Shown here: one piece after another, positions 854 through 26,863 of the stretch
Position numbering within the stretch: position 1 is the first letter of the stretch
How the letters are laid out: every line of letters starts with the position of its first letter
Assembly: GCA_902620425.1 (NCBI GenBank)
Contig: CACNHX010000009.1
Span: 1 to 47,664 of the forward strand
Source of the DNA: an uncultured Alphaproteobacteria bacterium
GTDB lineage: Bacteria; Pseudomonadota; Alphaproteobacteria; HIMB59; GCA-002718135
Direction of reading: 5' to 3'
DNA length: 47,664 nt
Notes under the pieces: generated by a model
The model's input: the letters and a program-made list of their open reading frames with translations, nothing else
What the model was told of the DNA's origin: nothing
The model's database searches: none
Position numbers and translations under genes: made by a program

Positions 854-1941
854 ATCAAAAAATTAAATATGCAATAATTGGTACTGGGGCAATGGGCAGA
901 GAGCATATTAGGAACATTGAAATCATTGAAAATGCAGAAGTTGTTGCTTTGTGCGATACATTTGAGGGTTCAATAAAAGCAAGTTATGAATTGGCTAACA
1001 ATAAAAGTATTAAGTGTTTTAATAATATAGATAGTTTGATTAAAGATGATAGTGCTGATGCTTATGTTATTTCTACACCAAACTTCACACATATAGATGT
1101 AATTAAAAAAGTTTTAGTAGCAAATAAACATCTCCTAATAGAAAAACCAATGTGTACAAATGTTGATGACTGTTTTGAACTACAAAAAATTACTAAAAAT
1201 TATAAAAGTACAATTTGGATAGCTATGGAGTACAGATACATGCTCCCTGTAAGTAAAATGACGGAATATATACATACGAAAAAAATTGGCGATCTGAAAA
1301 TGCTAACTATAAAGGAGCATCGTCAGCCTTTTTTAGAAAAAGTAAGAGATTGGAATAGATTTTCCCGAAATACTGGTGGAACGCTTGTTGAAAAATGTTG
1401 TCATTTTTTTGATTTAATGAGACTCATCATTCAAAGTGAACCAACTAAAATATTTGCAAGTGCTGGACAAGATGTAAATCATTTAGAAGAGAGTTATAAT
1501 AATGAAGTACCAGATATTATAGATAATGCATTTGTAATTGTTGATTTTAAAAATGGTGTAAGGAGCACTTTAGATTTATGTATGTTTGCTGAAAATACAG
1601 ATTTACAAGAGGAATTTTGTGCTGTTGGAAACTTAGGTAAAATAGAGACTGGAGTGCCATCTAATAGGTCTGGTAAAAATTCTTCTACTTTAAGAATTGG
1701 TATGAGAAATCAAAATAGTCCTATTCTTGAAAATATTACAGTAGATAAAAAAATATTTGATGCTGGTCACCACCATGGATCAACATATTATGAACATTTA
1801 GGTTTTATAAATAGTATAAATAATAAGCTGCCTGCGGAAGTTTCAATAAAAGATGGTTTGTATTCTGTTGCTATGGGCCAAGCAGCTGAGATATCGGCAA
1901 AAGAAGGAAGAGTGGTTGAAATGAGTGAATTTAATCTTTAA
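850..1941 (+). CDS. Gfo/Idh/MocA family NAD(P)-dependent oxidoreductase (1)
   Basis: A 363-residue protein of the glucose-fructose oxidoreductase/inositol dehydrogenase family. The N-terminal Rossmann domain opens with a GTGAMGREH nucleotide loop, and the EKP motif (LLIEKPMC, about residue 100) holds the conserved catalytic-region lysine. The later GGTLVEKCCHFFD segment replaces the common D-x-G-x-H pattern but keeps the His and final Asp. Members oxidise or reduce sugar ring hydroxyls, and some act as NAD-dependent glycosidases. The start overlaps the stop of the isomerase-like gene, and the 3' end overlaps the convergent dehydrogenase gene by 11 bases. It is one of three family members in the window; substrate unknown, probably a sugar or cyclitol. 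Confidence 0.88.
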   Translation: MNQKIKYAIIGTGAMGREHIRNIEIIENAEVVALCDTFEGSIKASYELANNKSIKCFNNIDSLIKDDSADAYVISTPNFTHIDVIKKVLVANKHLLIEKPMCTNVDDCFELQKITKNYKSTIWIAMEYRYMLPVSKMTEYIHTKKIGDLKMLTIKEHRQPFLEKVRDWNRFSRNTGGTLVEKCCHFFDLMRLIIQSEPTKIFASAGQDVNHLEESYNNEVPDIIDNAFVIVDFKNGVRSTLDLCMFAENTDLQEEFCAVGNLGKIETGVPSNRSGKNSSTLRIGMRNQNSPILENITVDKKIFDAGHHHGSTYYEHLGFINSINNKLPAEVSIKDGLYSVAMGQAAEISAKEGRVVEMSEFNL

Positions 1942-2866
1942 GGCTTTGAAAAAATTTATTTGTTGTATCAACTATAAAATTACTTACTCTGGTATTTGAC
2001 TCTTCAGTTACTCCAGCTGTATGTGGAGTTAAGATACAATTCATATTTTTAGTGATTTTTTTATAGAATTCTTCGTCAATAGGTTCATTCTCAAAAACAT
2101 CTAACGCAAAACCAGATATGATATTATTTGAGTATGCGTCTAGTAAGTCTCTTTCATTAATTATTCCACCTCTAGAAGAATTAATAATAATAGGTTTTTT
2201 TTCCATTTTGGAGAAAACTTGTTTATTAAACATATATTTAGTTTCTTCACTTAAAGGCACGTGTATTGAAATAATATCTGATAACTTCAAAATCTCATTG
2301 AAAGATACTTTTTTTAAATTGAAACTCTCTATTTGTTCAAAAGAAATAAATGGATCGTAAGTAATAAATGAAACATCAAATGAGTTAGCTAGTTTAAAAA
2401 CTTTTTTTGCAATGTAACCAAAACCTATTAAACCTAATGTCTTCCCTTTCAACTCATTTGTTACAATAGTATTCCTTGGCCAATTTCCTTTTCTAGTCTG
2501 ATCACTCACAATTAAAGTTTTTTTCAATAATATTAGAGAAGAATTAACCACATATTCAGCAACAGAGTCTGCATTCATACCTGTTGCAGGTTGAACAAAT
2601 ATATTATTTTTATTACAGTATTCAGTGTCTATATTATCAAGACCAACTCCTAGTCTTCCGATATATTTTAAATTAACTGCTTTTTCTAAAATACTTCCAT
2701 CTAGATTTGTTTTATTTCTTACAATTATTCCATCAAAATTATGTATTTCTTTTTCTAAGTAATCTCTATTTTGCCAAATTTCCTCATTATAAATTATATT
2801 AAAATCTTTATTTAAATTATTTAAAACTTGCTTATCTAAAAATTCAGTAATTAAAATATTTATCAT
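1931..2866 (-). CDS. D-isomer-specific 2-hydroxyacid dehydrogenase, SlcC ((S)-sulfolactate dehydrogenase)-like
   Basis: A 311-residue NAD-dependent 2-hydroxyacid dehydrogenase. It has the nucleotide fold GLIGFGYIAKKV with an Asp about 18 residues later (TYDPF, pointing to NAD), the catalytic Arg in NSSRGGIINE, Glu in FENEPI and His in LTPHTAG. The N-terminal half (ILITEFLD, IVRNKT, GRLGVGLDNID, PATGMNADSVAEYV) resembles, from memory, the (S)-sulfolactate dehydrogenase SlcC more than SerA. SlcC oxidises sulfolactate to sulfopyruvate, which is the substrate of the ComDE-type decarboxylase encoded just upstream in the same run; that context supports the call. It overlaps the kinase gene by 4 bases (ATGA). 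A phosphoglycerate dehydrogenase-like or glyoxylate-reductase activity is the alternative. Confidence 0.68.
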   Translation of the reverse strand: MINILITEFLDKQVLNNLNKDFNIIYNEEIWQNRDYLEKEIHNFDGIIVRNKTNLDGSILEKAVNLKYIGRLGVGLDNIDTEYCNKNNIFVQPATGMNADSVAEYVVNSSLILLKKTLIVSDQTRKGNWPRNTIVTNELKGKTLGLIGFGYIAKKVFKLANSFDVSFITYDPFISFEQIESFNLKKVSFNEILKLSDIISIHVPLSEETKYMFNKQVFSKMEKKPIIINSSRGGIINERDLLDAYSNNIISGFALDVFENEPIDEEFYKKITKNMNCILTPHTAGVTEESNTRVSNFIVDTTNKFFQSLKD

Positions 2867-3771
2867 TTAATTTTTATTATCTTTATTTTTTTTAAAAATT
2901 TATTTACCATATTTTTTTTTGGTATTGAGTATATTCCTCCCTTTTTCATACATTTTAATGTTGCGGTTGCTGCTGCTAACTGTATACTTTGAGAATTTGA
3001 TTTATTTAATGATAGAGCTGTTGCAAAAGCACCGTGAAAAACATCTCCTGCACAATTTGTTTCAGTTGTTTTTACCTTTGGAACTTTACAATGGTATAAA
3101 GAATCATTTTCAACCCAATAAACACCTTTAGATCCCATAGTAACTGCAACAAATTTATTTGTTTCGTTGAATATTTGAAAAAGAGCTTTTTGCATATTGA
3201 TATTTTTTTTATAAGTTTTCAAACCTTCCTCAGAAAATATAGGGTGAGAAGCTTTGTTAACGATTTGAGAAATTTTATTTGAACTTTTAAAATTATCTAA
3301 ATCTGCAACACATTTAATATTTTTTTTATTAGTATTAATAGCAATATTAAAAGCCATATCTATCCATCTCATATCTACTGCATAAATATCTTGTTTTCTA
3401 AAATTTAATTTCGGTATTTTCTTATAATCAAGTAGCTTTGGATCATTATAAGCAGCTAGTAATCTTTCACCCTTTGTATCCTCAATTACAAAGCTTTGCG
3501 AAGACTGACATTTTTTTATAAAAATTGATTTACTAATATTGATAGAAAATTTTTTTAATTCATTTTTTAAAAAGACTGAAGAATCATCATCTCCAAATTT
3601 TCCAATGAATTTTGATTCAGATCCTAAAATTTTTGCAGTAAATGCTGATACTGCTGCTGACCCGCCTAATCTTTTATCAATACCTCTAGATAAAACTTTA
3701 ATTGGTTTTTTTGGAAATTCATCTATCCTACTTATGTAATCTGTAAATATTGATCCTGCACAAATGATCAT
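2863..3771 (-). CDS. PfkB-family sugar kinase resembling sulfofructose kinase YihV
   Basis: A 302-residue ribokinase-fold kinase. It has the N-terminal RLGGSAAVSAFTA sugar-binding loop and a C-terminal TNCAGDVFHGAF block whose Asp is the catalytic base; the usual TTGAGD is altered to TNCAGD. Several stretches resemble E. coli YihV (6-deoxy-6-sulfofructose kinase) by eye: FIGKFGDDDS, SSQSFVIEDTKGER, DMRW, FSEEGL and LKCMKKGG. The Lys near residue 25 and the Arg of DMRW line up with YihV residues reported to contact the sulfonate; the Asn expected after the TKGER block is Ala here. It lies between the SlcC-like and ComE genes, overlapping the former by 4 bases. Related rhizobial-type sugar kinases share some of these motifs, so the substrate is uncertain. 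Confidence 0.8.
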   Translation of the reverse strand: MIICAGSIFTDYISRIDEFPKKPIKVLSRGIDKRLGGSAAVSAFTAKILGSESKFIGKFGDDDSSVFLKNELKKFSINISKSIFIKKCQSSQSFVIEDTKGERLLAAYNDPKLLDYKKIPKLNFRKQDIYAVDMRWIDMAFNIAINTNKKNIKCVADLDNFKSSNKISQIVNKASHPIFSEEGLKTYKKNINMQKALFQIFNETNKFVAVTMGSKGVYWVENDSLYHCKVPKVKTTETNCAGDVFHGAFATALSLNKSNSQSIQLAAATATLKCMKKGGIYSIPKKNMVNKFLKKIKIIKIK

Positions 3772-3781
3772 AAAATAATAA

Positions 3782-4351
3782 TTAAAGGTATTTAACTATA
3801 CCGATAAATTTTCTAAACCTATCTCTTATAGTTATAGGATTGATTGGAATAGGATCAATTTTAACATTCCCAGAATTGATCTTTGAAATTATTACATATG
3901 AATTATCTTTATCATCAATAGCTTTGTTCAATGCATTTACTGTTTCATCTCCAGAACATTCAACTACATTTTTACAACCAGCACCTATTGCAACATCTTT
4001 TAAAGAAGTATTTTCATCAGTAAAAGTCCTTTGATCTCCTGTTGATCCATATGATCCATTATCAATTATTAATAAAGTATAATTTGATGGTGCTCTATTG
4101 CCAATTGTTGCTAGTGTATTCATATTCATTAAAACAGATCCATCACCATCTATGCTAATAACATTTTTGTTTTGAGATAATGACAAGCCTAAACCAATAG
4201 AAGAGGATAAACCCATACTGCCTAACATATAAAAAAAGTTTGGTTGATCGTTAATTTTATATAATTCTTGAGATGGAAGACCTATATTACAAATAACTAA
4301 GTTATCTTTAAGTATATTTTGTATTTTATTTAATAAGTCAAACCGGTTCAT
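3782..4351 (-). CDS. comE: Sulfopyruvate decarboxylase beta subunit-type TPP enzyme (ComE-like)
   Basis: A 189-residue protein equal to the C-terminal, thiamine-diphosphate-binding domain of a decarboxylase. The TPP/Mg motif is GDGSVLMNMN followed about 28 residues later by IDNGSYGSTGDQRT, the pattern seen in the ComE subunit of sulfopyruvate decarboxylase and in phosphonopyruvate decarboxylases. The partner alpha domain is encoded separately just upstream, overlapping by 4 bases (ATGA), so the pair forms a two-subunit enzyme. ComDE decarboxylates sulfopyruvate to sulfoacetaldehyde, which the Xsc encoded at 41749-43518 can consume. Phosphonopyruvate is the alternative substrate, but those enzymes are usually one fused chain. 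Confidence 0.8.
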   Translation of the reverse strand: MNRFDLLNKIQNILKDNLVICNIGLPSQELYKINDQPNFFYMLGSMGLSSSIGLGLSLSQNKNVISIDGDGSVLMNMNTLATIGNRAPSNYTLLIIDNGSYGSTGDQRTFTDENTSLKDVAIGAGCKNVVECSGDETVNALNKAIDDKDNSYVIISKINSGNVKIDPIPINPITIRDRFRKFIGIVKYL

Positions 4352-4848
4352 TTATCATCTTTCATTAAATTGAAATCACATAATATAGCAACTGGTGACT
4401 CCACAACTTTAGCATGTTTGCTAAATGTTGAAATTTTCTCAAGATCATTTTCTGAAGAACAATGCAACATAGGTATTCTTAAAGTCTGTAAAATATCTTC
4501 AGTTATTTTAGCCATTCCACCTTGTGCTCCTACTGGCTCACCTGGTGTACCTCTGTAACTAATTAGAAAAACAACAGGCATTTGATATAATTGCAATAAA
4601 GAAACAATTGCATTCACTGAATTTCCTATTCCTGTATTCTGCATCATTATACAAGGGAATTTATTTCCTAAATAAGCTCCTGCACAGATACCCATACCTT
4701 CTTCCTCACGTGGTACAGCCGAATAATATACATCATTATCTTTTTCAAGAATATCAATCATGTTAGCTAATAACTTGCAAGGAACACTTAAGTAAAAATC
4801 TACACCACCCTTTTTTAAATTATCGATAATTTTTTTACTGATTTTCAT
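4348..4848 (-). CDS. comD: Sulfopyruvate decarboxylase alpha subunit-type TPP enzyme (ComD-like)
   Basis: A 166-residue protein equal to the N-terminal pyrimidine-binding domain of a thiamine-diphosphate decarboxylase. The Glu that activates TPP is in the PREEEGMGICAGAYLG segment, and the MQNTGIGNSVNAIVSL and ISYRGTPGEPVGAQG segments are typical of ComD and of phosphonopyruvate decarboxylase N-terminal domains. It is split from its catalytic partner ComE, whose start overlaps its stop. No clear Shine-Dalgarno sequence precedes the ATG; only a poly-A stretch is visible. The 47-base spacer to the upstream mutarotase gene is one of the larger gaps in this run, so an internal promoter is possible. 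Split ComD/ComE architecture favours sulfopyruvate as substrate. Confidence 0.8.
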   Translation of the reverse strand: MKISKKIIDNLKKGGVDFYLSVPCKLLANMIDILEKDNDVYYSAVPREEEGMGICAGAYLGNKFPCIMMQNTGIGNSVNAIVSLLQLYQMPVVFLISYRGTPGEPVGAQGGMAKITEDILQTLRIPMLHCSSENDLEKISTFSKHAKVVESPVAILCDFNLMKDDK

Positions 4849-4895
4849 TTTTTTTTGATGTCTATAGATATAAAATGATTAAACAATAAATTAAT

Positions 4896-5948
4896 TTATT
4901 TAAAATCATTTCTTAATTTTATTTTAGTATTTGAAGTATATTTTTCACCTTTTTTTAATATAGTTGATGGAAAATTTGGTTGATTAATAGCATCAGGGAA
5001 GATTTGTGTCTCTAAACACATTCCATATTGTAAACCATAATTTCTATCATGTTTTCCGTTGTATGACTCCTTCATCATGTTACCAGTATAAAATTGTATT
5101 CCAGGTTGATCAGTTGAGTATTCAACTCCCATACCAGTAATGTTACTGTAGATTGCAGCTATGGATTGATCAATAGAATGATCTTTGAGAACATAATTGT
5201 GATCAATACCACCGCCTTCTAAAAAAGATTTATTTATTTCAAATGAATTATTAAGATCATATTTTGTATTAACTACTTCGAATAATTTACCAGTAGGAAT
5301 TGATCCCTCATCAGTTTCGCAAATTTGATTAGATGATATTCTTACAACATGGTCAGTAATATTTTTATAATTATCTTTATGGCCATGGAAATTCCAATAG
5401 TTATGATTAGTCATATTAACAATAGTATCTTGATCTGTAGTAGCATTAAAGGAAATTAGAATTTCGTTATTGTTATTAAGTTCGTAAATAGTTTTACAAT
5501 TTAAGTTGCCTGGATAATTTTCTTCTAAATGTTTAGACTGGTAAGTGAGCTCTACTTTTATACTTTGGCTTGTTTTTTTAATATCGGCTATTTTCCAAAT
5601 CTTTTTATTGAAACCTACCTCTCCACCATGAAGATGATCAGGTTCGGTATTAGAATATAAATTATATTCTTTCCCATTAAGAGTAAATTTACTTTGCCCT
5701 ATTCTATTACAAACTCTTCCAATAATTGAATTGAAATATCCATGAGCTTCCAGACAATCATCTAAATTACCATAACCTAATAAAACATCCTCTGTTTCAG
5801 AAACATTCGATGAAGTTGGAATACAAACTTCACTCATATAACCACCATAAGTATAAAAACTAAAACTATAATTGTTTGAGTTAATAATATTAACTATATC
5901 AATATCTAAACCTTTATCATTTTGAAGTTTGGTAATTTTATATTCCAT
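4896..5948 (-). CDS. galM: Aldose 1-epimerase (galactose mutarotase family)
   Basis: A 350-residue mutarotase that interconverts alpha and beta anomers of a free sugar. Family landmarks are all visible: HGGEVGFNKKIW with the first active-site His, NHNYWNF with the catalytic-acid His, the GGGIDHNYVL stretch, and the C-terminal ETQIFPDAINQPNFPST block whose Glu is the catalytic base. There is no signal peptide, so it acts in the cytoplasm. The start overlaps the stop of the upstream DMT permease by one base. Its place between an importer/oxidoreductase block and a kinase/decarboxylase block implies that the imported compound is, or releases, a cyclic sugar. Sulfoquinovose mutarotases are a more distant epimerase subgroup, so this gene does not prove a sulfosugar substrate. 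Confidence 0.9.
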   Translation of the reverse strand: MEYKITKLQNDKGLDIDIVNIINSNNYSFSFYTYGGYMSEVCIPTSSNVSETEDVLLGYGNLDDCLEAHGYFNSIIGRVCNRIGQSKFTLNGKEYNLYSNTEPDHLHGGEVGFNKKIWKIADIKKTSQSIKVELTYQSKHLEENYPGNLNCKTIYELNNNNEILISFNATTDQDTIVNMTNHNYWNFHGHKDNYKNITDHVVRISSNQICETDEGSIPTGKLFEVVNTKYDLNNSFEINKSFLEGGGIDHNYVLKDHSIDQSIAAIYSNITGMGVEYSTDQPGIQFYTGNMMKESYNGKHDRNYGLQYGMCLETQIFPDAINQPNFPSTILKKGEKYTSNTKIKLRNDFK

Positions 5949-6847
5949 TATGTTTTCCTTAATCTTTGAAAATTATTTTTTCTTTGTTGAAGATAAATGA
6001 TTAATCCACCTAAAACTATGAAAAAAGCGCCTGGGAAGAGTTGATCAACTGGCCATTCTGCAAAAAATATCCAACCTAAAATAAGTGCAAAAAATATCTC
6101 TATATAATCAAATGGCATAATTTTACTAAGTTCTGCATTTCTAGCACCATATATTAAAAGTAAAGTTCCAGACCCTCCTGCAATCCCCATTCCACAAACT
6201 ACTAAGAAATCATTTATAGTTTTAAAATTTTCCCACATACCGAAAAACATCACTAACATACATGCAACTATGATTGTCCCTGTTTGACCATACAAATTGA
6301 TAAGTGGTGAAGGAACATGATCCTCAAAACTTAAGGATGTTACCCTTGCTAATGAATATCCAAAAGCAGCAAGTATAGGAAGTAATAACATATAATTAAA
6401 GTCTGATGACCAAGGTTGCATAATTAAAACTATACCTACAAAACCAGAAATTACTGCACTCATTTTGTACCAACCAAATTTTTCACCTAATAAAGGGATA
6501 GCAAGAAGGGTGACCATCATGGGCCCAGTGTATTCCATGGTAGCGACTAAAGCAAAAGGTAGGTAGGCATAAGAAGTATAGAGACATAATTGAGCCAATG
6601 CTACAAATACTCCGCGGAATAATCCTAACTTCCATTGCGTTATTTTTATTTGTCTACCGTTTCGATGCCAATCATGTGAAAAATATAAAGCAATAACACA
6701 TGGGATCATTCCAAATAAATTTCTAAAAACAGAAAGTTGAGCTGCAGGATATTCGTTTCGTAAAAACTTTATCGCGATCCCCATACAATCCAATAAAAAC
6801 AAACCTGAAAGTGATAATATAACAGCTAAAAATAAATTATTTTTCAT
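5948..6847 (-). CDS. DMT-superfamily permease (EamA family) (1)
   Basis: A 299-residue integral membrane protein with about ten hydrophobic helices arranged as two EamA repeats. The first repeat contains FRNLFGMIPCV and the second GYSLARVTSLSFED; the chain ends in a short basic tail. Drug/metabolite transporters move small metabolites, often outwards; substrates vary too much to predict from sequence. It sits between the Gfo/Idh gene (13-base gap) and the mutarotase (1-base overlap), so it probably handles a substrate, product or by-product of this pathway. Family call sure, role open. Confidence 0.85.
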   Translation of the reverse strand: MKNNLFLAVILSLSGLFLLDCMGIAIKFLRNEYPAAQLSVFRNLFGMIPCVIALYFSHDWHRNGRQIKITQWKLGLFRGVFVALAQLCLYTSYAYLPFALVATMEYTGPMMVTLLAIPLLGEKFGWYKMSAVISGFVGIVLIMQPWSSDFNYMLLLPILAAFGYSLARVTSLSFEDHVPSPLINLYGQTGTIIVACMLVMFFGMWENFKTINDFLVVCGMGIAGGSGTLLLIYGARNAELSKIMPFDYIEIFFALILGWIFFAEWPVDQLFPGAFFIVLGGLIIYLQQRKNNFQRLRKT

Positions 6848-6860
6848 TAATCATAATCTA

Positions 6861-7919
6861 TTATTCTAAAATAATTTCTTTTCCTACTTCTTGACTTTTA
6901 TAAATTCCATCTAAAATTTTCATTACTTGTAGAGAGTGTTCAGCCGGAATAGTAACTGGTTGATGGTTTGCAACAAATTCTGCAAACTCGATACATTCTT
7001 TGGCATGAGGTTCAATAGTATCATTCAAATTTCCTTCAATTTTTTTAGTTATGTGAGTTTGAGAATTGATATCATTTTTTATAATCTCACAATTAGGCCA
7101 ATGCAAACCAGCTTCTCTTCCGTATAACCATACCTGCATATCTTCTATTTTATCTTCTGGTAGTTTATGATGAAGCATCCATGATACTTCAAGCATCAAG
7201 GTTGCACCATTTTTAAACCTAACAAACGCGGCTGCAAAATCTTCAACGTTCATTGCTTCCTTATCGTACTCTCCATTGTAACTAAAAGAATTTGGCTGCT
7301 TTGCTAATTCTGTTTTTGACACACCCGTCACAGAAAGAGGTTCTGGGTTGTTCATAAACCAAAGAGTTAAATCTAATACGTGTACCCCTATATCAATACA
7401 AGGCCCTCCTCCTGAATTTTCTTTTTTTAAAAAACCAAGTGAGACTGGTAAATAATTTCTTCTAAGCATCCAAGAACGTGCATGATATATCGAACCAATT
7501 GATGTGGATTGATCTTTTATTATTTGAGAATCTTTTCTGAATCTAAAGTGTTGAGCACACATTAATTTTTTTTTCGTTTGATCTCTTACTTCAATCATTT
7601 TTTTTATTTGTGAAGCATTTGGAGCTAAGGGTTTTTCACATAAAACATCTTTGCCAGCTTGCATTGCTTTAATTGCTAAATCGCAATGATAGTTATTAGG
7701 TGCACAAATATCTATCACATCTATATCTGGATCATTAATCATGTCTAAGGGATCAAGATATAATTTTTTTATTTGATTAGTATTACCCCAATCTTCTAGA
7801 GTTGATTTGTTTATATCAGAACCTGCTATTAATTCTGCATGTTCTGACATGCGCCAACCAGGTACATGTAACTTTGCAATACCCCCAACGCCAATAATAC
7901 CAACTTTTATTTTACTCAT
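6861..7919 (-). CDS. Gfo/Idh/MocA family oxidoreductase (2)
   Basis: A 352-residue NAD(P)-dependent oxidoreductase. It has the N-terminal Rossmann motif GIIGVGGIAKLH, the EKP motif in DVLCEKPLA (about residue 96) and the substrate-domain motif GGGPCIDIGVHVLDL containing the Asp and His used in catalysis. It is followed 13 bases later by the DMT permease and preceded 16 bases upstream by another Gfo/Idh gene, suggesting two consecutive or paired oxidations of one imported compound. Members include inositol and glucose dehydrogenases and NAD-dependent glycosidases. The exact substrate cannot be read from sequence. Confidence 0.9.
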   Translation of the reverse strand: MSKIKVGIIGVGGIAKLHVPGWRMSEHAELIAGSDINKSTLEDWGNTNQIKKLYLDPLDMINDPDIDVIDICAPNNYHCDLAIKAMQAGKDVLCEKPLAPNASQIKKMIEVRDQTKKKLMCAQHFRFRKDSQIIKDQSTSIGSIYHARSWMLRRNYLPVSLGFLKKENSGGGPCIDIGVHVLDLTLWFMNNPEPLSVTGVSKTELAKQPNSFSYNGEYDKEAMNVEDFAAAFVRFKNGATLMLEVSWMLHHKLPEDKIEDMQVWLYGREAGLHWPNCEIIKNDINSQTHITKKIEGNLNDTIEPHAKECIEFAEFVANHQPVTIPAEHSLQVMKILDGIYKSQEVGKEIILE

Positions 7920-7935
7920 ATTTATATTTTTTAAT

Positions 7936-8925
7936 TTAGATATTTATCCATTTTTTTTCTTTTTCTGATTGGTAAATTGATTCCATTATACTACTTCTCA
8001 ATGCTGCTTCTATAGGAGTAACTAGATTTTTAGTATTGTTATCAATTAATGAATTTAGAAATAAATCAAATGCATGAGGTAATGCTTCTGGTAAATTTTC
8101 TTCTATTCTTTCTGTTTTTTTACCATCCTTATTTTCATTTATAATTAATTGCTCATTCGTTGTTCTTGCGTGAGCTTTTGTTCCACTTACAAAAATAGTA
8201 TATGGCTGCGCTATATCTATCCATCCCGCGGCAATACTAGCTATCAACCCACTTTTAAATTTTATTAATGCTTCTCCACTCTCTTCACAGTCTGGATATT
8301 GATTATATACTTTTGTAAAGGTTGCACTTACTGACTCAACATCAGAAAAAAACCATAAAAGAAGATCTAAAACATGTGTTCCTAAATCACCAAAAGCTCC
8401 AACTCCAGCAACTTTGGGATCTGTCATCCATTGATATTTTTTGAAAATATCCCTCATAATACCATCGTGACAATTAACGAGTCGAATTCTTGAAATTTCG
8501 CCAAAATAATTAGCAGTAATTAATTCTTTAAGTTTTATGTAAACAGGATTGCTTCTCATGAAATAGCCAGTTTGGAAAATAATATTTGAAGACTCAATAA
8601 GATTTGCCATTTCAAAAGAATCTTTTTTTCCTATCCCTAAAGGTTTTTCTATAAAACAGTTTTTTTTATTCTCGGTAATCTGTTTAACTAATTCATAGTG
8701 CAAATTAGTTTCTGAACATACAATAACACCATCTAAATTAGGTTCTTTTAATAAATCAATATAGTTATCATAATTCTTACATTTCAGTTTTTCTGAATCA
8801 CTTTTTGACCTGTTCTTATCTTTGTCCCAAACACCAATACAATTAATTTTAATATTTGAAATTACCTTAGAAATAAAGTTTGGTGTATGAATATGAGAGG
8901 TTCCAATAAATGCTATATTTTTCAT
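7936..8925 (-). CDS. Gfo/Idh/MocA family oxidoreductase (3)
   Basis: A 329-residue oxidoreductase of the same family but clearly diverged from its neighbour. It shows an N-terminal AFIGTSHIHTPN, which departs from the usual GxGxxG loop, then the EKP motif in CFIEKPLG and a catalytic-region GVGAFGDLGTHVLDLLLWFF. The weak dinucleotide loop leaves open whether it binds NAD(P) in the usual way. It follows the ABC transporter ATPase gene by 18 bases and precedes the second Gfo/Idh gene by 16 bases, so it is probably cotranscribed with the importer. It may act on the imported compound or its glycoside. Confidence 0.85.
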   Translation of the reverse strand: MKNIAFIGTSHIHTPNFISKVISNIKINCIGVWDKDKNRSKSDSEKLKCKNYDNYIDLLKEPNLDGVIVCSETNLHYELVKQITENKKNCFIEKPLGIGKKDSFEMANLIESSNIIFQTGYFMRSNPVYIKLKELITANYFGEISRIRLVNCHDGIMRDIFKKYQWMTDPKVAGVGAFGDLGTHVLDLLLWFFSDVESVSATFTKVYNQYPDCEESGEALIKFKSGLIASIAAGWIDIAQPYTIFVSGTKAHARTTNEQLIINENKDGKKTERIEENLPEALPHAFDLFLNSLIDNNTKNLVTPIEAALRSSIMESIYQSEKEKKWINI

Positions 8926-8943
8926 TACAGTTATAAAAACTAC

Positions 8944-9930
8944 TTATAGAGCACAACACTGATCGACCCAGTGACCTGGTTCAACTTCAATAAGACCCAT
9001 TTTTATTTCTCCACCTTTGCAATCTACTCCAGGATTAGGACATCTGGTTCTAAACACACAACCTGGAGGTGGATTTAATGCGCTAGGAATTTCTCCCTTT
9101 AGTTCTATAGCTTCAGATCTTTTCTCTGGATCAATTGATGGAATAGAAGATAATAGTGCCTTTGTGTAAGAATGTTTTGGGTTCTTAAATAATTCTCTTG
9201 AAGGTCCCATTTCAACTATGTGCCCCAAATACATAACTGCAACAACATCACATACATGAGCTACTACACTTAAATCATGACTTATGAATAAGTAAGTTAG
9301 GTTAAGCTCAGTTTGAAGTTGTTTTAAAAGATTTAATATATCTGCTTGTATTGATACATCTAAAGCAGCAACACTTTCGTCTGCTACTATAAATTTTGGA
9401 TTACTTACTAAGGCTCTTGCAATTGATATTCTTTGTCTTTGTCCTCCAGAAAATGCATGAGGAAATCTTCTTAAATGCTCAATATTTAATCTGCATTTAG
9501 CAGCAATATCTCTTACTCTTTCATCAGTTTCTTGTCTTGAGTTTGTTATTCTCATCACTTCTAAAGGCTCTGCAATAATATCCCTCACAGTCATTCTTGG
9601 GCTTAAAGCAGCATAAGGATCTTGAAAAATTAATTGAGCTTTTTTTCTATATTCTTTTAAATCTTGTTTGTTCATATCTGTTAAATCATAATCTCTTTCA
9701 TCGTCATGAAAAATAACATTTCCAGAACTGATTTTATTAGCTCCAAGTATTGCTCTTCCTAAAGTTGTTTTACCAGATCCTGATTCGCCTACTAATCCAA
9801 AGAATGATCCTTTTTTAATTTTGATATTGATATTGTTTACAGCATGTATTTTTTGTTTTTTTGAAATAAAATTTTCTTGATAATCAAAATTTACTGAAAC
9901 ATTATTTACTGAAATTAAATTATCACCCAT
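8944..9930 (-). CDS. Oligopeptide/oligosaccharide ABC transporter ATP-binding protein (OppF/DppF type)
   Basis: A 328-residue ABC ATPase if started at the ATG at 9930, giving MGDNLISVNN. An upstream in-frame ATG at 9984 would add 18 residues with no family resemblance and run deep into the preceding gene, so I reject it; the chosen start overlaps that gene by 8 bases. Walker A GESGSGKT is at about residues 48-55, the signature is FSGGQRQR, Walker B is FIVADES (Ser replaces the usual Pro), and the oligopeptide-transporter C-terminal domain with GCVFRTRCP follows. It pairs with the OppD-type ATPase upstream to energise the importer. Its tail (EVEPGHWVDQC) is nearly identical to that of its partner. 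Confidence 0.92.
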   Translation of the reverse strand: MGDNLISVNNVSVNFDYQENFISKKQKIHAVNNINIKIKKGSFFGLVGESGSGKTTLGRAILGANKISSGNVIFHDDERDYDLTDMNKQDLKEYRKKAQLIFQDPYAALSPRMTVRDIIAEPLEVMRITNSRQETDERVRDIAAKCRLNIEHLRRFPHAFSGGQRQRISIARALVSNPKFIVADESVAALDVSIQADILNLLKQLQTELNLTYLFISHDLSVVAHVCDVVAVMYLGHIVEMGPSRELFKNPKHSYTKALLSSIPSIDPEKRSEAIELKGEIPSALNPPPGCVFRTRCPNPGVDCKGGEIKMGLIEVEPGHWVDQCCAL

Positions 9931-10912
9931 TTTGACCACACTTAATTCCGCACTGATCAACCCAGTGACCTGGTTCAACTTCAATTAATTTCATTTCTAT
10001 TTTACCATCTTTTCCTTCTGGATTATGATGTGGGCATCTAGTTCTAAATACACATCCTGTTGGCCTATCTAATGGACTTGGAATATTTCCAGGTATTGGA
10101 GATAAGGGCGCGTCTAAGTTATTTATGTCAGGTAAAGCTTGTAATAGCCCTTTTGTATAAGGATGTTTTGGATTTTTAAGGATCTCATTCACTGGACCTT
10201 TCTCCACTACACTTCCCAAATACATAACCGCTACATGGTCCGCTACCTGCGCAATAACACCTAGATCGTGAGTAATAAATATTACTCCCATTTGATATTC
10301 TTTAATAATATCTTTAATTAGATTAATTACTTGAGCTTGAATTGTTACGTCTAAAGCAGTTGTTGGCTCATCTGCTAATAAAAGTTTAGGCATAGTAGAT
10401 AATGCCATAGCTATCATTGCTCTTTGACGCATTCCCCCAGACAATTCAAATGCATATTGATTAAACCGTTTTTCTGCATCTGCTATACCTACTCTTTTAA
10501 GCATGTTTATAGATATTGATTTTGCCTCCTCTTTATTAATATTTTTATGAATTAGTAATTGCTCAACCATCTGGGCTCCAATTTTTATTGCTGGAGCAAA
10601 ACTTGCCATAGGCTCTTGAAAAATCATTGATACTTTACCACCTCTAATTTTTTTTAAGTCTTGCTTAGAGGTAAATTGAAGAACATTTTCGTTGTCTAAA
10701 ATTATTTCTGCGTCTTCGTTATAAGAAGTATTACCTGGATTTAACTTCATAATCGATTTAGCAGTCACCGATTTACCTGATCCAGATTCACCAACTATAC
10801 CAAGTACTTCACCTTGATCTACAGAAAGAGAGATATTTTCAACAGCTGTAATTCTACCTTCATCAGTATCAAATTTTACATCTAAATTTTTTACTTCTAA
10901 TAAATGACTCAT
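9923..10912 (-). CDS. Oligopeptide/oligosaccharide ABC transporter ATP-binding protein (OppD/DppD type)
   Basis: A 329-residue ABC ATPase. Walker A GESGSGKS lies at about residues 41-48, the signature is ELSGGMRQR, Walker B is LLLADEP, and the oligopeptide-transporter C-terminal region contains GCVFRTRCPHHNPEG. It follows the OppC-type permease gene with a one-base gap and overlaps the OppF-type gene by 8 bases, a normal translational-coupling layout. Together the two ATPases drive the permease pair and the large periplasmic binding protein encoded upstream. The last 15-20 residues are almost the same as those of the partner ATPase, also at DNA level. Confidence 0.92.
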   Translation of the reverse strand: MSHLLEVKNLDVKFDTDEGRITAVENISLSVDQGEVLGIVGESGSGKSVTAKSIMKLNPGNTSYNEDAEIILDNENVLQFTSKQDLKKIRGGKVSMIFQEPMASFAPAIKIGAQMVEQLLIHKNINKEEAKSISINMLKRVGIADAEKRFNQYAFELSGGMRQRAMIAMALSTMPKLLLADEPTTALDVTIQAQVINLIKDIIKEYQMGVIFITHDLGVIAQVADHVAVMYLGSVVEKGPVNEILKNPKHPYTKGLLQALPDINNLDAPLSPIPGNIPSPLDRPTGCVFRTRCPHHNPEGKDGKIEMKLIEVEPGHWVDQCGIKCGQNG

Positions 10913-10913
10913 A

Positions 10914-12074
10914 TTATTTTACCTTATGAGGATCTGCTGCATCACGTAATCCATCCCCTACATAGACAAATGTTAAAATTAATACGACTAAGAAAAATAC
11001 AGGGATAAAATACCATTGATAGTTTAAAAGTACGTCGGCCTTTGTTGCATTTTGCAAAAGTACACCAAGAGAGTTTACTGGTTCTCTCAAACCAAGTCCT
11101 ATAAAACTTAAAGCAGTTTCGGATAATAACATGTATGGAAAACTAATGACTAAATCGACAATAATATAACTCGTGAAACTTGGTAATAAGTGTCTTACAA
11201 TAATGTGAGTAGATGATGCTCCACAAAGTTTTGCAGCAAGAATATATTCTTGGCTTCTTTCACTAAGTAAATGTGTTCTTACTCTTCTTGCAAGAGTTGG
11301 CCATGAAATTAATCCAAGCAAACAGGAAATAAAAAAGAACCGTAATTCAGAACTCCATTCTAATGGCGCAAAGGCAGCAAGACACATAAACAGAGGTATA
11401 GGTGGAACGGTTCGAATTGCATCAGTAAACATTTGTAATACGCTATCAATCCAACCACCATAGTAACCTGAGATCCCACCTATTATTAAGGATAGAACAA
11501 AAGATATAAATACACCAAGTGTTCCCACAGCCAGTGAAATGTAAATTGCACTTAAGGTTCTACTGAATAAATCTTTTCCTGCCTTATCTGTTCCAAATAT
11601 ATGGATACCACCTTCTTCAACTCCAAATAAATGAGTATTAAATGTAAAACCTGGAATTTTAAAATCTAAAATTTTTCCTGGAAGATTTATATTAAAATCA
11701 AAAACTTTATATTCCCATCCTTCAACAAAAAAATAAACGTATCTTCTTTTTTCAGTATCAACTTTATAAACCCATCTAAAATTTGTATCTGCTCCTCTAT
11801 ATTTTTCTAATGTGTGTAAAAACGGCCTTGCAGAAAATCCATTTTCATCCCAAAACATCGGAATTTGAGGTGCTCCATTTTCATAATCTTTATCTCTTCC
11901 TTTAATTGTTGGATCATAAGGAGATAGAAAATCTGCAAATAGACTACAAATAATCATAAATAATAAAATAGAACCAGCAATCATAGCAGATCTGTTTCCA
12001 AAAAAGCGTGTTCTTACTAACTGCATCTGCGTTGCAGTATAATAAGCTTCTTTTTTTTGATTACTAACCTCCAC
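10914..12074 (-). CDS. Peptide/sugar ABC transporter permease (OppC/YejE type)
   Basis: A 386-residue inner-membrane permease. A first helix near residues 30-50 is followed by an unusually long periplasmic segment of about 110 residues (from SPYDPTIKG to HIFGTDKAGKDLFSRT), as in YejE-like permeases, and then five further helices. The cytoplasmic ATPase-coupling loop is visible as ILAAKLCGASSTHIIVRHLLP. The start overlaps the end of the OppB-type permease by 11 bases. It forms the channel with that permease. The long periplasmic insert is a known feature of the subfamily and says nothing certain about the substrate. Confidence 0.9.
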   Translation of the reverse strand: MEVSNQKKEAYYTATQMQLVRTRFFGNRSAMIAGSILLFMIICSLFADFLSPYDPTIKGRDKDYENGAPQIPMFWDENGFSARPFLHTLEKYRGADTNFRWVYKVDTEKRRYVYFFVEGWEYKVFDFNINLPGKILDFKIPGFTFNTHLFGVEEGGIHIFGTDKAGKDLFSRTLSAIYISLAVGTLGVFISFVLSLIIGGISGYYGGWIDSVLQMFTDAIRTVPPIPLFMCLAAFAPLEWSSELRFFFISCLLGLISWPTLARRVRTHLLSERSQEYILAAKLCGASSTHIIVRHLLPSFTSYIIVDLVISFPYMLLSETALSFIGLGLREPVNSLGVLLQNATKADVLLNYQWYFIPVFFLVVLILTFVYVGDGLRDAADPHKVK

Positions 12075-13077
12075 CCATAACTCCTTTTCTTATTCTTGGA
12101 TCAATTATTGCTAAAATAATATCCGTTATAAAATTTACAAAAACAATTGTTGCCGTTAGAAGAAAAATAATTGCACCTGCTAATTGCTGATCATTTGATC
12201 TTGCTAGAGCTTCAATTAACAATGCCCCAGCTTCTGTAAGAATTAAAATTAAGGCTACAATCGGCAATGCACTAAATATACGATTAAGGTCAAAACCTAT
12301 AGAATTGATTACTGGACCTAAAGAATGTTTTGCGGGATATCTCCACAACAAACTCATTCCTGATATTCCTCTAGCTCTTGCAGCCATTACATATAGTTTA
12401 TCATTTTCATCTAGCATTAGTGCCCTAACTGTTTGAAGAGCAAAGGCAGTTGCATTCCAACCTAAAACAAATATTGGAAGCCAAGCTCTACTTAAAAAAT
12501 CAAATAGTTTTGCTGATGACCAGGGTTCATTTTCATATTCTTGAGAAAACAAACCTGTCATCGTATCTCCATAGTAAACAGTCATAAAAAGCATAATACA
12601 GAGTGCTACTAAAAAATTGGGAAGTGCTATTCCAAGATAACTAATGAATTTTAGAGTATTATCTAATGATGCATATTTTGTCGTGGCCGATATGATCCCA
12701 ACTGGTATGGCAATTAAATATGAAAATATTAGTGCAACCAAACATATTGTTAAAGATAAAGTAAATCTTCCACTTAATAATTCATTAATATTCATTCTTA
12801 AAATACAACTATCACCAAAATCTCCATTAAAAACTATATTGGAAACCCATTTGCCATATCTATACAAAAAAGGTTTATCTAAACCTAAACGAATTTTTTC
12901 TTTTTCTATGTCTTCATAAGTTATTTGTGATCCTTGTGTATTTTTAAATGCTAGATATCTTTCAGCACAAGTTCCAGGAACTAATTCCATTAATGAAAAA
13001 ACAATAAAGCATACAAGAAGTAAAGTTATAATTGCAAGTCCTGCTCTTGTGAGAGTAAATTGTATAAAATTAATCAT
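12064..13077 (-). CDS. Peptide/sugar ABC transporter permease (OppB type)
   Basis: A 337-residue permease with a first helix at about residues 10-30, a periplasmic loop, and five further helices. The coupling loop VMAARARGISGMSLLWRYPAKH near residues 230-250 contacts the ATPases. It is the first gene after the intercistronic terminator hairpin at 13116-13140, so its transcription depends on read-through from the binding-protein gene or on an unseen promoter. No strong Shine-Dalgarno sequence precedes the ATG on this strand. It partners with the OppC-type permease downstream. Confidence 0.92.
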   Translation of the reverse strand: MINFIQFTLTRAGLAIITLLLVCFIVFSLMELVPGTCAERYLAFKNTQGSQITYEDIEKEKIRLGLDKPFLYRYGKWVSNIVFNGDFGDSCILRMNINELLSGRFTLSLTICLVALIFSYLIAIPVGIISATTKYASLDNTLKFISYLGIALPNFLVALCIMLFMTVYYGDTMTGLFSQEYENEPWSSAKLFDFLSRAWLPIFVLGWNATAFALQTVRALMLDENDKLYVMAARARGISGMSLLWRYPAKHSLGPVINSIGFDLNRIFSALPIVALILILTEAGALLIEALARSNDQQLAGAIIFLLTATIVFVNFITDIILAIIDPRIRKGVMGGG

Positions 13078-13115
13078 ATAAAATAATTAGGAGACAAGAA
13101 TAATTAAAAAAAGAA

Positions 13116-13140
13116 AAGCGGCAATATATAATTGCCGCTT
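13116..13140 (-). terminator. Intercistronic rho-independent terminator/attenuator after the binding-protein gene
   Basis: The arms AAGCGGCAAT (13116-13125) and ATTGCCGCTT (13131-13140) pair perfectly over 10 bp around a 5-base loop. On the minus strand the stem is followed by TTCTTTTTTT. A T-run also follows on the plus strand, so it could work both ways. It lies between the binding-protein gene and the first permease gene, where partial termination would give more binding protein than membrane components. Confidence 0.85.
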
Positions 13141-13163
13141 TTTTTATTATTTATTGAGTTAAA

Positions 13164-15218
13164 TTACTCGTCTAACCACCATTGAGTAGCTAGATATGGG
13201 TATGTTCTATAATACTCATACGAAGTAGTTTTAAACTGCGTAAAGTTTTTCAACGCATTTCTATGATAAGTTGGGAAAGGTGCTTTCACCGTACCAATCA
13301 ATAGACTTTGCTCTGTTAACATTGTTGCAATTTTTTCACCCCACTCATTAGACTCAGCAGTACCAAGAGCGTAAGATTGGAATTTATCAATTCCATCACT
13401 TAAGTCATATACCCACTGAGGAGGTTCAGTACCTTCGTCACCATTACTATCAATATATGCTGCCCAATCTAAACCTTGTGTATGGTTAAAGTAGTTACCA
13501 AAAGGAGGTTTAAATGTTTCTGGGTTACCAGCAACAATTGCTAATGGTTGACCTTTATCCCAAACGTGAACATCAAGTTGGTTTGCAGCTTGCGAACCAC
13601 GATATTCATCTGGAGTTACCTCTTTAAAAGTAGTTTTTACTCCTACTTCATTGAAGTATCTAGCAACAAGTTCAACTTCAACACCACCAATACCTTGAGT
13701 AGCGTAGTCAATATTAATAGCTAGAGCATCACCATTTGGTAATTCTCTAAATCCATCACCATCAACGTCTTTTAATCCTACTTCATCAAGAAGAGCATTT
13801 GCTCCATCTGGATCGTATTGAGTCATATGCATTTTTATACTTTCAGGAACGAAGTCAGGTGCAGGAGAAAATCCTACAAACTGCTCAACTTTACCTAAAC
13901 CGTAATATGCAACTTCGTTGATCTCGTCTCTATTCATTGCAATTGACATTGCTTGACGGAAACGAATATCCCCATAGACTTTACGTTTTTCAGGATCAGG
14001 ATGTGTTACATTAAAGCTAAATAATGCAGCACCACAACCTGGATTGATTTGAACTTGATATCCACCAGACTCAGCACCATCAAGTAATTGAGGAGCGGAC
14101 TCTAATTGAACAGACTGTGATTTATAATCAACTTCACCATTAACAAGTTTTAACAATCTTATTTCATTTTCATTGATATATCTTTCATTTTGATAATCAA
14201 TGTATGGTAATTGATTCCCAGCTGTATCAACTTGGAAAAAGTATGGGTTAGCTGCATAGACTCTACCTTCTGTAGTGTCTTCAATAGTCATGTAAGCTTC
14301 TAAAGAAGGATAAGCTGCATAAGGTAATCCAGCAACTAGATCTGGTTTAGCTAGTAAAGGAGTTGGAGTATCAGTCCAACCTGAGTTACCATAATATGCT
14401 GCTAAAGCATCATAACCATCTGCAAATCCTAATGCCTGAGCATTTGCATCAGCATTTGAATCAATTTCCGGATGGAATTGTTCTAGGAAATGTGAAGGCA
14501 TGAAGAACTGGTTATATGACCATGCAATAGTTGCAGTTAAACCAGGGAATGGAGATGGTAAGTTAAATCTTACTGTTTGATCATCAATTACATCAACAGT
14601 CATTGGTTCACCACCAACTAAAAGATATGGATATGGTTTTTCACGAATCTTTGGATTCATCATCAAATCTTCGTACCAAAACTCAACATCTCTAGCTACA
14701 AAAGGTTCACCATTTGACCACTTGTGACCTTTACGTAACATGAATGTTAAAGTAGTAAAATCATCATTCCACTCATAATCTTTAGCAACGTTTGGAACAA
14801 TTGTAGTTAAGTCATCAGCAAAACGTAATAAGTTAACGTGTCTTGTAGATAACATATCAGAAGTTCCCGCTTCAGTTGCGTTCGATAAGAAGTTTATTGT
14901 ATTTCCATATTTACCAATAGACTCATATGGTACTACAACAAGCGGTTCATCAGGTAATCTATCCTCAACTGGAGGTAGACTTCCTGGGTTACCTTGTATT
15001 GTAGCGTTTATGCTAGCAATATTTGGATTATCTGAAAACTTCATAGTACAGCCGGCTGCACTTTCATATTCTGATAACTCATATTGCTGAGGATATTTTC
15101 CGCCTGTCTGTGCATCGTTCATTGTTGTACCTACGCAATGACCACCTGCAAAAGAGCTTCCACTCCAGACAAAGGTTGCGGAAGAAAATACTAACGCTAT
15201 GAATAGTTTTTTTAACAT
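13164..15218 (-). CDS. Periplasmic solute-binding protein, oligopeptide/oligosaccharide family 5 (ABC importer)
   Basis: A 684-residue secreted binding protein. A signal peptide is clear: MLKKL, a hydrophobic core, and a cleavage site around SSFA/GGHC; there is no lipobox, so it should be free in the periplasm. The mature protein has the family-5 pattern, including NFLSNATEAGTSDML, LTFMLRKGHKWSNGEPFVARDVEFWYEDL and FRQAMSIAMNRDEINE. It is longer than the usual 500-550 residues, in the range of homologues that bind sugars and larger conjugates. An AGGAG Shine-Dalgarno sits 7 bases before the ATG. It is the first gene of a 13-gene co-directional run whose enzymes are of sugar and sulfonate type, so a sugar-containing ligand is more likely than a peptide. 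Confidence 0.9.
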   Translation of the reverse strand: MLKKLFIALVFSSATFVWSGSSFAGGHCVGTTMNDAQTGGKYPQQYELSEYESAAGCTMKFSDNPNIASINATIQGNPGSLPPVEDRLPDEPLVVVPYESIGKYGNTINFLSNATEAGTSDMLSTRHVNLLRFADDLTTIVPNVAKDYEWNDDFTTLTFMLRKGHKWSNGEPFVARDVEFWYEDLMMNPKIREKPYPYLLVGGEPMTVDVIDDQTVRFNLPSPFPGLTATIAWSYNQFFMPSHFLEQFHPEIDSNADANAQALGFADGYDALAAYYGNSGWTDTPTPLLAKPDLVAGLPYAAYPSLEAYMTIEDTTEGRVYAANPYFFQVDTAGNQLPYIDYQNERYINENEIRLLKLVNGEVDYKSQSVQLESAPQLLDGAESGGYQVQINPGCGAALFSFNVTHPDPEKRKVYGDIRFRQAMSIAMNRDEINEVAYYGLGKVEQFVGFSPAPDFVPESIKMHMTQYDPDGANALLDEVGLKDVDGDGFRELPNGDALAINIDYATQGIGGVEVELVARYFNEVGVKTTFKEVTPDEYRGSQAANQLDVHVWDKGQPLAIVAGNPETFKPPFGNYFNHTQGLDWAAYIDSNGDEGTEPPQWVYDLSDGIDKFQSYALGTAESNEWGEKIATMLTEQSLLIGTVKAPFPTYHRNALKNFTQFKTTSYEYYRTYPYLATQWWLDE

Positions 15219-16905: not shown

Positions 16906-16912
16906 TAAAGAT

Positions 16913-24877: not shown

Positions 24878-24882
24878 AATTT

Positions 24883-25764: not shown

Positions 25765-25770
25765 AAATTT

Positions 25771-26805: not shown

Positions 26806-26835
26806 TATGCTATTTTAAATTACATAGAAAGATAT

Positions 26836-26863
26836 AAGGGGTTTTCAAATTTGAAAACCCCTT
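26836..26863 (-). terminator. Intercistronic hairpin after the sugar-binding-protein gene
   Basis: A perfect inverted repeat has 14-base arms, AAGGGGTTTTCAAA (26836-26849) and TTTGAAAACCCCTT (26850-26863), with no intervening base, so the folded RNA would open a few central pairs. On the minus strand the tract after the stem is only TTATATCTTTC, weaker than a classic U-run; the plus strand has a better T-run. It separates the binding-protein gene from the permeases and probably gives partial termination or protects the upstream message. Confidence 0.8.

Follow-up and report, generated by a model that had tools for sequence, protein, structure and literature searches.

The window analysed here is a 47,664-nucleotide stretch of contig CACNHX010000009.1 (assembly GCA_902620425.1) from an uncultured alphaproteobacterium, and its left end carries a gene cluster that is probably dedicated to the catabolism of sulfoquinovose (SQ). 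Thirteen open reading frames (ORFs) on the minus strand run from a substrate-binding protein gene starting at 15218 down to a D-2-hydroxyacid dehydrogenase gene ending at 1931. The 12 junctions between them measured 86, -11, 1, -62, 18, 16, 13, -1, 47, -4, 10 and -4 bases, ten being overlaps or gaps of less than 20 bases, in agreement with the co-directional 13-gene run of the preliminary description. Two genes on the plus strand, at 8-853 and 850-1941, converge on this run; the second has its start overlapped by the first and itself overlaps the dehydrogenase gene by 11 bases. The run taken earlier as the unit is real, but the functional unit continues leftward past it to include these two genes, while both Gfo/Idh genes inside the run proved optional. 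The decisive genes adjoin the run and do not lie within it, since it is the two left-hand genes, an isomerase and SqgA, that settle the substrate.

The nearest structures to ORF 850-1941, which encodes a Gfo/Idh-fold protein, were 8qc2 (E = 1.7e-103, 349.6 bits), 8qc3 (2e-100) and 8zn9, the next PDB match scoring 75.6 bits. 8QC2 is FlSqgA and 8QC3 is ArSqgA, described as NAD+-dependent sulfoquinovosidases in the available part of Kaur et al. 2023 (PMC10755693), and the SqgA family is GH188 (PMC11465081). The sulfonate contacts given there in ArSqgA numbering are Arg166, Leu170 and Lys172, and the further residues Lys107, Tyr136, Glu189, His193 and His321 (PMC10755693, same part). The sulfonate triad corresponded to R158, L162 and K164 of the window protein, the next four residues to K99, Y128, E181 and H185, and His321 aligned to H308 of an HH pair (308/309) in which both histidines were invariant. 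Related loci were collected by a GTDB scan with the kinase of the run as query, which gave 53 loci, many of them ending inside the cluster. All eight published residues checked were kept in 48 of 48 aligned SqgA sequences, which came from the window, 45 of these 53 loci, genome G105 and Zymomonas. By family, ORF 850-1941 is a GH188 sulfoquinovosidase, SqgA, with the corresponding activity predicted.

The gene at 8-853 is cut by the contig start and encodes the C-terminal 281 residues of a predicted SqvD/SftI-type sulfoquinovose isomerase. It matched the SftI sulfoquinovose isomerase model NF048012 of NCBIfam (E = 1.3e-65) over profile positions 162-440 of 443, i.e. the second half. A full-length isomerase, 95% identical to that of the window, was found in a relative (locus L092) and belongs to PF02952, the family assigned to the SQ isomerase SqvD in a 2022 review (PMC9594981, in the part available). 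In 101 genomes, the window's own and 100 relatives, isomerase (at least 60% identity) and SqgA co-occurred exactly, in the same 36.

Inside the run, the PfkB-family gene at 2863-3771 gave the sulfofructose kinase 7ag6 as its closest solved structure with 156.3 bits, against 102.4 bits for the next match and 60.4 bits for the best ribokinase. By this affinity the product is a predicted YihV-type sulfofructose kinase, which upholds the earlier call. The genes at 3782-4351 and 4348-4848 encode ComE and ComD, the predicted beta and alpha subunits of sulfopyruvate decarboxylase. ComD scored 161.3 bits with TIGR03845 (cut-off 147.95) and ComE 221.4 bits with TIGR03846 (cut-off 221.5), whereas the phosphonopyruvate decarboxylase model gave 99.3 and 132.3 bits against a cut-off of 312.5. 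A phosphonopyruvate decarboxylase identity for ComDE, raised in the preliminary description as the competing assignment, was rejected on these profile-model scores, which are of the sulfopyruvate type.

The dehydrogenase at 1931-2866 (PF02826) is a likely SlcC-type (S)-sulfolactate dehydrogenase. Its best plasmid relatives were 'hydroxyacid dehydrogenases' of Sinorhizobium, Paracoccus and Methylobacterium, with 35-39% identity to the plasmid enzymes. Pairwise scores were 219-264 bits to these three genera, 167 bits to Pantoea and at most 173 bits to the four full paralogues compared from its own genome. Six regions around SlcC relatives were opened, five of them annotated, the Sinorhizobium record being without annotation. 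Four of the five (three from Paracoccus, one from Methylobacterium) had an adjoining Ldh-family (ComC-like) gene with a sulfate/sulfite exporter nearby, and three of these also held a UxaA pair (SuyAB-like); the Pantoea region showed no Ldh-family gene, exporter or UxaA pair.

Farther along the window lie a gene for Xsc, the sulfoacetaldehyde acetyltransferase that would carry out C-S cleavage (41749-43518, minus strand; TIGR03457, 950.7 bits, cut-off 676.4), and one for a phosphotransacetylase-type enzyme (20533-21432, plus strand; PRK08190, 307.5 bits, cut-off 282). The first of these bears on whether the run might be an ordinary operon for a neutral or uronic sugar, with ComDE acting on another oxoacid, the dehydrogenase a relative of SerA or hydroxypyruvate reductase and the kinase a ribokinase. 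Close relatives do carry, some kilobases past SftI, genes that read as uronate-type from their translations, and the top PDB matches of the dehydrogenase were phosphoglycerate dehydrogenases, with the phosphoglycerate dehydrogenase model as the best of NCBIfam (245 bits, cut-off 454). Four sulfonate signals nevertheless stand against a SerA/neutral-sugar operon, namely the SqgA triad, the sulfofructose kinase affinity, the ComDE models and Xsc, and on these we rejected it as highly improbable.

The remaining genes of the run encode an aldose 1-epimerase (4896-5948; PF01263, 235 bits; galM model 257.5 bits, cut-off 397.65) that is a probable SQ mutarotase and is referred to as GalM, an EamA/DMT permease that is possibly an exporter (5948-6847; PF00892), two Gfo/Idh proteins and an ATP-binding cassette (ABC) importer. 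GfoA (6861-7919) resembles DgpA (PDB 9m3d, 181 bits; 7xr9, 174 bits), and GfoB (7936-8925) belongs to PF01408/PF22725, its best PDB match scoring 61.5 bits. Both were considered as sulfoquinovosidases and rejected, GfoA matching 8qc2 with only 32 bits and GfoB not having 8qc2 among its best 60 PDB matches. The importer consists of two ATPases (8944-9984 and 9923-10912), two permeases (10914-12074 and 12064-13077) and an SBP_bac_5 substrate-binding protein (13164-15218; PF00496). The family names of the four genes at 8944-13077, of dipeptide/oligosaccharide type, were read from the translations, while the earlier family calls for the dehydrogenase, PfkB kinase, ComE, ComD, epimerase, EamA/DMT permease, both Gfo/Idh proteins and SBP_bac_5 all held in profile scans. 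The binding protein matched 5ipw (250.6 bits), SPH1118 (7ver, 208.9 bits) and an alpha-galactoside-binding protein (6epy, 102.6 bits), so that peptides are not the sole ligand candidates.

Over the 53 loci, ComD, ComE and the kinase were present in all, GalM in 52, SlcC in 48, the plus-strand Gfo/Idh gene (SqgA) in 47 and SftI in 45, with GfoA in 31 and GfoB in 32. The kinase adjoins ComE in all 53 of these kinase-chosen loci and also in all 30 of the best ComE loci of the taxonomic order, and the gene order of the importer is kept in relatives. Because the genes recur across 53 loci, the run is not a product of chance; conservation in related genomes, which the preliminary description had named as a check, was found as ComD-ComE-kinase in 53 of 53.

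Taken together, these genes make it probable that the cluster serves SQ catabolism and unites the two tiers of degradation in one cell, as a hybrid sulfoglycolytic Embden-Meyerhof-Parnas (sulfo-EMP) pathway leading through SlcC, ComDE and Xsc to sulfite. In this scheme the ABC importer would bring in free SQ or one of its glycosides, for example sulfoquinovosyl glycerol; SqgA would free SQ with the help of NAD+, GalM would equilibrate the SQ anomers, and the SqvD/SftI-type isomerase would convert SQ to sulfofructose. The YihV-type kinase would then form sulfofructose-1-phosphate (SFP), to be cleaved to dihydroxyacetone phosphate and sulfolactaldehyde (SLA) by an aldolase, putatively of the LacD/YihT type in five relatives and of class II in the window genome. 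A GabD-like aldehyde dehydrogenase encoded on another contig of the genome (C1) may oxidise SLA to (S)-sulfolactate, which SlcC would turn into sulfopyruvate and ComDE into sulfoacetaldehyde. Xsc is expected to release sulfite and acetyl phosphate from the latter, and the phosphotransacetylase (Pta) to yield acetyl-CoA.

Several observations weigh against this reading. The full-length isomerase of L092 scored 326 bits with NF048012, far under the cut-off of 700, and ComE fell 0.1 bit short of its own. A 16-row SlcC tree, which held no certain SerA and from which a partial D-2-hydroxyacid dehydrogenase (C17) was left out, fails to settle whether SlcC-type enzymes form one clade, so the SlcC label rests on context and score; the earlier assignment to SlcC and not SerA is favoured by the pairwise scores, its clade being left unsettled by so small a tree. 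The window cluster contained no SFP aldolase, neither YihT class I nor SqiA class II, and no SLA reductase or dehydrogenase was seen in the clusters of the window or its relatives. The two class II aldolases of the window genome are nearly equidistant from the class II aldolase of Zymomonas (34% and 33% identity), and one of them stands beside IolC/IolB-like genes.

Xsc was surveyed in 61 genomes, own included, comprising 37 of the genus and 24 of the other family, f2; counts are among the matches listed. Within the genus, full-length Xsc (at least 84% identity) occurred in 28 of 37 genomes, was split or partial in two (G001 and G036) and was not found in seven, and in the family f2 genomes the best match by E-value had 25% identity. 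A further point against the proposed scheme is that full-length Xsc was present in 14 of 19 genus genomes with SqgA and in 14 of 18 without it, so that no coupling is seen; the five genomes that carry SqgA but no full-length Xsc have a completeness of 59-88%. Xsc thus belongs to the genus as such and is unlinked to the SQ genes.

The last of these points concerns the importer half of the run. Importer, DMT permease, GalM, ComD and ComE stand intact without kinase, SlcC, SqgA and SftI in G001, G011, G024, G035 and G110, where tblastn found no remnant of the SQ genes. Four of these genomes (G001, G011, G024 and G035; 72-84% complete) also lack SqgA and SftI genome-wide, G110 being outside the set examined. 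The next gene at the five loci reads from its translation as agmatinase-like, UxuA-like or, in G011, aldo/keto-reductase-like; in G015 only ComE was seen beside the agmatinase-like gene, at a contig end. Median identity to the window fell from 99% for the binding protein and permeases through 97% (ComD), 94% (ComE) and 88% (kinase) to 71% (SlcC) and 62% (SqgA), medians being taken over the 43-53 loci holding each gene. As the five relatives are without SQ genes and identity falls along the run, we read the cluster as two modules, importer-GalM-ComDE and kinase-SlcC/SqgA-SftI(-aldolase), with their junction between ComE and the kinase. Comparison of window 8944-15218 with loci L039-L091 also showed an abrupt mosaic break close to the kinase, the median identity being 99% for binding protein and permeases against 62% for SqgA.

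Standing alone in five relatives, importer-DMT-GalM-ComDE has a use apart from SQ, and since importer, mutarotase and ComDE occur without SQ genes, the importer is only a candidate sulfosugar carrier. The two modules could then be mere neighbours, the first handling a different sugar, sulfonated or acidic, or else a C3 sulfonate. In that case the SQ genes would have been inserted beside it, and SQ would enter through one of the other sugar importers that adjoin SftI in relatives. MalEFGK-like importers do lie beyond SftI in relatives, and in G060 the importer of the run is replaced by one that reads as PotABCD-like; the fall in identity and the equal frequency of Xsc with and without SqgA point the same way. 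Against such independence, SlcC would supply the substrate of ComDE and is in the same strand run with only the kinase between it and ComE, and the junction of kinase and ComE is constant in the 53 and the 30 loci. Moreover, G105, from another genus of the family (g5), carries a GH31 glycosidase, ComD-ComE-SlcC, SqgA and a class I fructose-bisphosphate aldolase (L182, 6872-16906), while the window-type importer, kinase and SftI were not in the 19.9 kb seen. G105 speaks for ComDE, SlcC and SqgA being functionally linked, without bearing on the importer substrate. We regard two unrelated neighbours as unlikely, though deserving serious consideration, and retain the joined SQ pathway. The route from sulfosugar through a C3 to a C2 sulfonate in the preliminary description is accordingly probable, backed as it is by SqgA, the SQ-type isomerase and Xsc, but the sulfosugar role it gave to the importer is only a possible one.

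The preliminary description had seen no aldolase or SLA dehydrogenase, and none was found in the window here either. Five relatives (G057, G059, G020, G026 and G051), in contrast, carry a LacD/DeoC-family class I aldolase of 339-354 residues directly before SftI on the same strand. Two of the five were scanned and matched PRK12858 with 317 and 323 bits (cut-off 184). Among 29 SftI loci with upstream sequence (L010-L038), the aldolase was present in five, a relic in one (G060) and neither in 23. It stood before SftI in none of the 53 GTDB-scan loci, 38 of which extend past SftI into the following gene block, and the 95% relatives G025 and G028 have no aldolase upstream of SftI, with a weakly abhydrolase-like gene there instead. 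The relic in the G060 spacer comprises 39 residues with 59% identity (E = 7e-8) while isomerase, SqgA, kinase, SlcC and ComDE stay open, so the dedicated aldolase has been lost at least once, in G060.

In the window genome, which is 90.8% complete, another aldolase most likely took over, the leading candidates being its two class II aldolases of 354 and 276 residues, the latter adjoining the IolC- and IolB-like genes. SFP is a sulfonate mimic of fructose-1,6-bisphosphate. Judged by eye, the presence of class II aldolases across the genus fails to separate SftI-bearing from SftI-free genomes. The genome also had a single PF01791 match, lying with ribokinase and aldehyde dehydrogenase (ALDH) genes and read as deoC, and one transaldolase (PF00923, 227 residues). 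For SLA oxidation, 10 of the genome's 13 PF00171 match rows were compared with the succinate-semialdehyde dehydrogenase (SSADH) of the Zymomonas cluster; the ALDH at C1:174026 was 46% identical and the nine others 27-34%, which makes this GabD-like ALDH the candidate SLA dehydrogenase. We propose, tentatively and at close to even chances, that a streamlined, uncultured open-ocean lineage mineralises SQ to sulfite in one cell by sulfo-EMP and SlcC-ComDE-Xsc, and that the dedicated SFP aldolase is gone from most of its members seen, as the general class II fructose-bisphosphate (or IolJ-like) aldolase accepts SFP.

The type of the lost aldolase also raises the question of another sulfohexose, for instance sulfofucose, that would be isomerised to sulfotagatose, phosphorylated and cleaved by a tagatose-bisphosphate-type aldolase. 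The model matched best by the relatives' aldolase, PRK12858, is that of tagatose-1,6-bisphosphate aldolase, and the AlphaFold model of the isomerase, itself poor (pLDDT 63), had arabinose and fucose isomerases as top fold matches with low TM-scores. SqgA, however, keeps the SQ C4-hydroxyl residue (the Glu189 equivalent) besides the sulfonate triad, and the kinase is nearest to sulfofructose kinase. The published sulfofucose route, moreover, is of the Entner-Doudoroff (ED) type in the part of PMC12421959 available. Another sulfohexose such as sulfofucose is thus a very unlikely substrate, and SQ remains the preferred one.

The upper pathway proposed for the window is close to the hybrid sulfo-EMP pathway with SqvD isomerase and YihV kinase, known from Arthrobacter with SqgA and from the Zymomonas plasmid pZZM402; SqgA, epimerase, the predicted isomerase, PfkB sulfofructose kinase and the expected intermediates are common to both (PMC9594981 and PMC10755693, in the parts available). 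The window locus differs in being without SFP aldolase and SLA dehydrogenase and in its predicted continuation through SlcC, ComDE and Xsc in place of excretion of sulfolactate or 2,3-dihydroxypropane-1-sulfonate (DHPS). As two pathway genes are missing from it, it was not filed as a complete sulfo-EMP cluster. On pZZM402 we found in a row a class II aldolase, epimerase, fucose/arabinose-type isomerase, SqgA, transporters and SSADH, with PfkB across the record start, and no ComDE was annotated in the two stretches seen. Identity to the window set was 35% for the isomerase (taken from the full-length protein of L092), 46% for SqgA, 34% for the kinase and 33% for the epimerase. The plasmid row is an independent parallel to the predicted upper pathway of the window.

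The cluster of the actinobacterium IMCC26103, with a Tyr-variant GH188, has in common with the window GH188, sulfofructose kinase, a fucose isomerase, a D-3-phosphoglycerate-dehydrogenase-like protein and an ABC importer, and this GH188 Y158 cluster is also without an aldolase (PMC11465081). It holds the sulfolactate sulfolyase SuyAB, whereas the window has ComDE and Xsc and the common Leu at the GH188 residue (PMC11465081). The tandem sulfofucose-SuyAB pathway of Paracoccus wurundjeri resembles the proposed route in that a single bacterium converts a hexose sulfonate into sulfite and uses SlcC, but with an ED-type upper part, SlcC/ComC racemisation, SuyAB, and sulfofucose in place of SQ (PMC12421959, in the part available). 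Marine Roseobacter clusters of the SQ monooxygenase (sulfo-SMO) type, on Paracoccus and Ruegeria plasmids, likewise have SqgA as gateway and produce sulfite in one cell; there a monooxygenase cuts C-S first, while the window route would cut C-C first (PMC10755693, same limit). The nearest published cases use SuyAB for C-S cleavage (PMC11465081; PMC12421959, part available). The literature searched, mostly without subscription papers, showed neither an SQ pathway coupled to ComDE-Xsc nor SQ genes in HIMB59/AEGEAN-169. What is new here is a sulfo-EMP-like route linked to SlcC-ComDE-Xsc within a single genome, together with loss of the aldolase.

ComDE also occurs in another setting. The best annotated-plasmid relative of the window ComE was a Roseobacter comE (59% identity), and two Roseobacter plasmid regions (ComE 59% and 55%) combine ComDE, read as sulfopyruvate decarboxylase, with tripartite ATP-independent periplasmic (TRAP) permeases, a hisD-type gene, a short-chain dehydrogenase/reductase (SDR) and an alcohol dehydrogenase (ADH). 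They look like DHPS degradation clusters, with no sulfosugar genes in the stretches seen, and we read their TRAP-hisD-SDR-ADH genes as HpsKLM-HpsN-HpsO-HpsP. The Hps gene names for the DHPS route appear in the available part of PMC11131964. Window 34246-35568 encodes a histidinol-dehydrogenase-family protein with 44.7% identity to the hisD-type gene of a Roseobacter ComDE cluster. It may be an HpsN-like enzyme that oxidises DHPS and supplies the same ComDE.

The host belongs to the HIMB59 group (AEGEAN-169), and the GTDB-scan loci came mostly from single-cell or metagenome-labelled genomes of uncultured Alphaproteobacteria. One of them, L042, is AG-891-K05, which serves as reference for the HIMB59-group genomospecies GCA002718135-1.A; this genomospecies is widely distributed in Tara Oceans samples according to the part of PMC10734472 available. 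HIMB59 is the AEGEAN-169 clade (PMC10308909, in part), and the main text of that paper has no occurrence of 'sulfo', 'taurine' or 'aldolase'. Annual SQ production is given as about 10 billion tons (PMC10755693, PMC12890257), complete degradation through C-C cleaving routes is said in the 2022 review to need other bacteria (PMC9594981), and both tiers in a single bacterium are termed unusual (PMC12421959), each in the part available. If the pathway is correct, one widespread uncultured cell type would take SQ to sulfite, a job usually described as split between two bacteria, and the presence of both tiers in an oligotrophic ocean lineage would change the fate of SQ sulfur and carbon. In 2026, a survey that covered 21,845 aquatic genomes required every core enzyme to lie inside a span of 10 ORFs (PMC13372026, in the part available); a rule of this kind would miss the present locus, because aldolase and SLA dehydrogenase are absent from it.

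Other features of the window were also recorded. A PehA-like sulfatase/phosphoester hydrolase gene (15370-16905; 408.9 bits, cut-off 900) is divergent from the binding protein gene and lies beside it in 15 of the 53 loci, many of which stop short of its position. Genes for an alanine dehydrogenase (17959-19074, minus strand; TIGR00518, 481.7 bits) and an AptA-type omega-aminotransferase (19074-20414, minus strand; NF052567, 585.5 bits) suggest a possible entry of taurine into Xsc. Rfam and tRNA scans of the window gave no match. Going by the translations, 16862-17962 encodes a second MetE-like protein and 23804-34243 holds three SnoaL-like genes, a cupin, a MetE-like gene, a regulator of the LacI type and a second ABC importer of sugar type. 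Genes that read likewise as CysNC-, CysD- and CysQ-like, for sulfate activation, lie at 35565-39143, near the predicted sulfite-releasing Xsc.

In the relatives, a sulfatase, a formylglycine-generating-enzyme-like gene and an ABC importer were observed upstream of aldolase-SftI in L120 (17145-19121) and L121 (2342-4316), families having been scanned in L120 only. A second cluster in G048 (contig C6; L124, 7257-16171) contained a distant SftI-like isomerase (28%), DhaK-type (PF02733) and DhaL-like genes, a LacD-type aldolase, an importer and a reductase that matched best the sulfolactaldehyde 3-reductase model (299.5 bits, cut-off 348). It may represent a further (sulfo)sugar route that uses a Dha-type kinase. 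Isomerase and aldolase matches about 7 kb apart also occurred in G008, G022, G040, G044 and G059, the cluster opened being that of G048.

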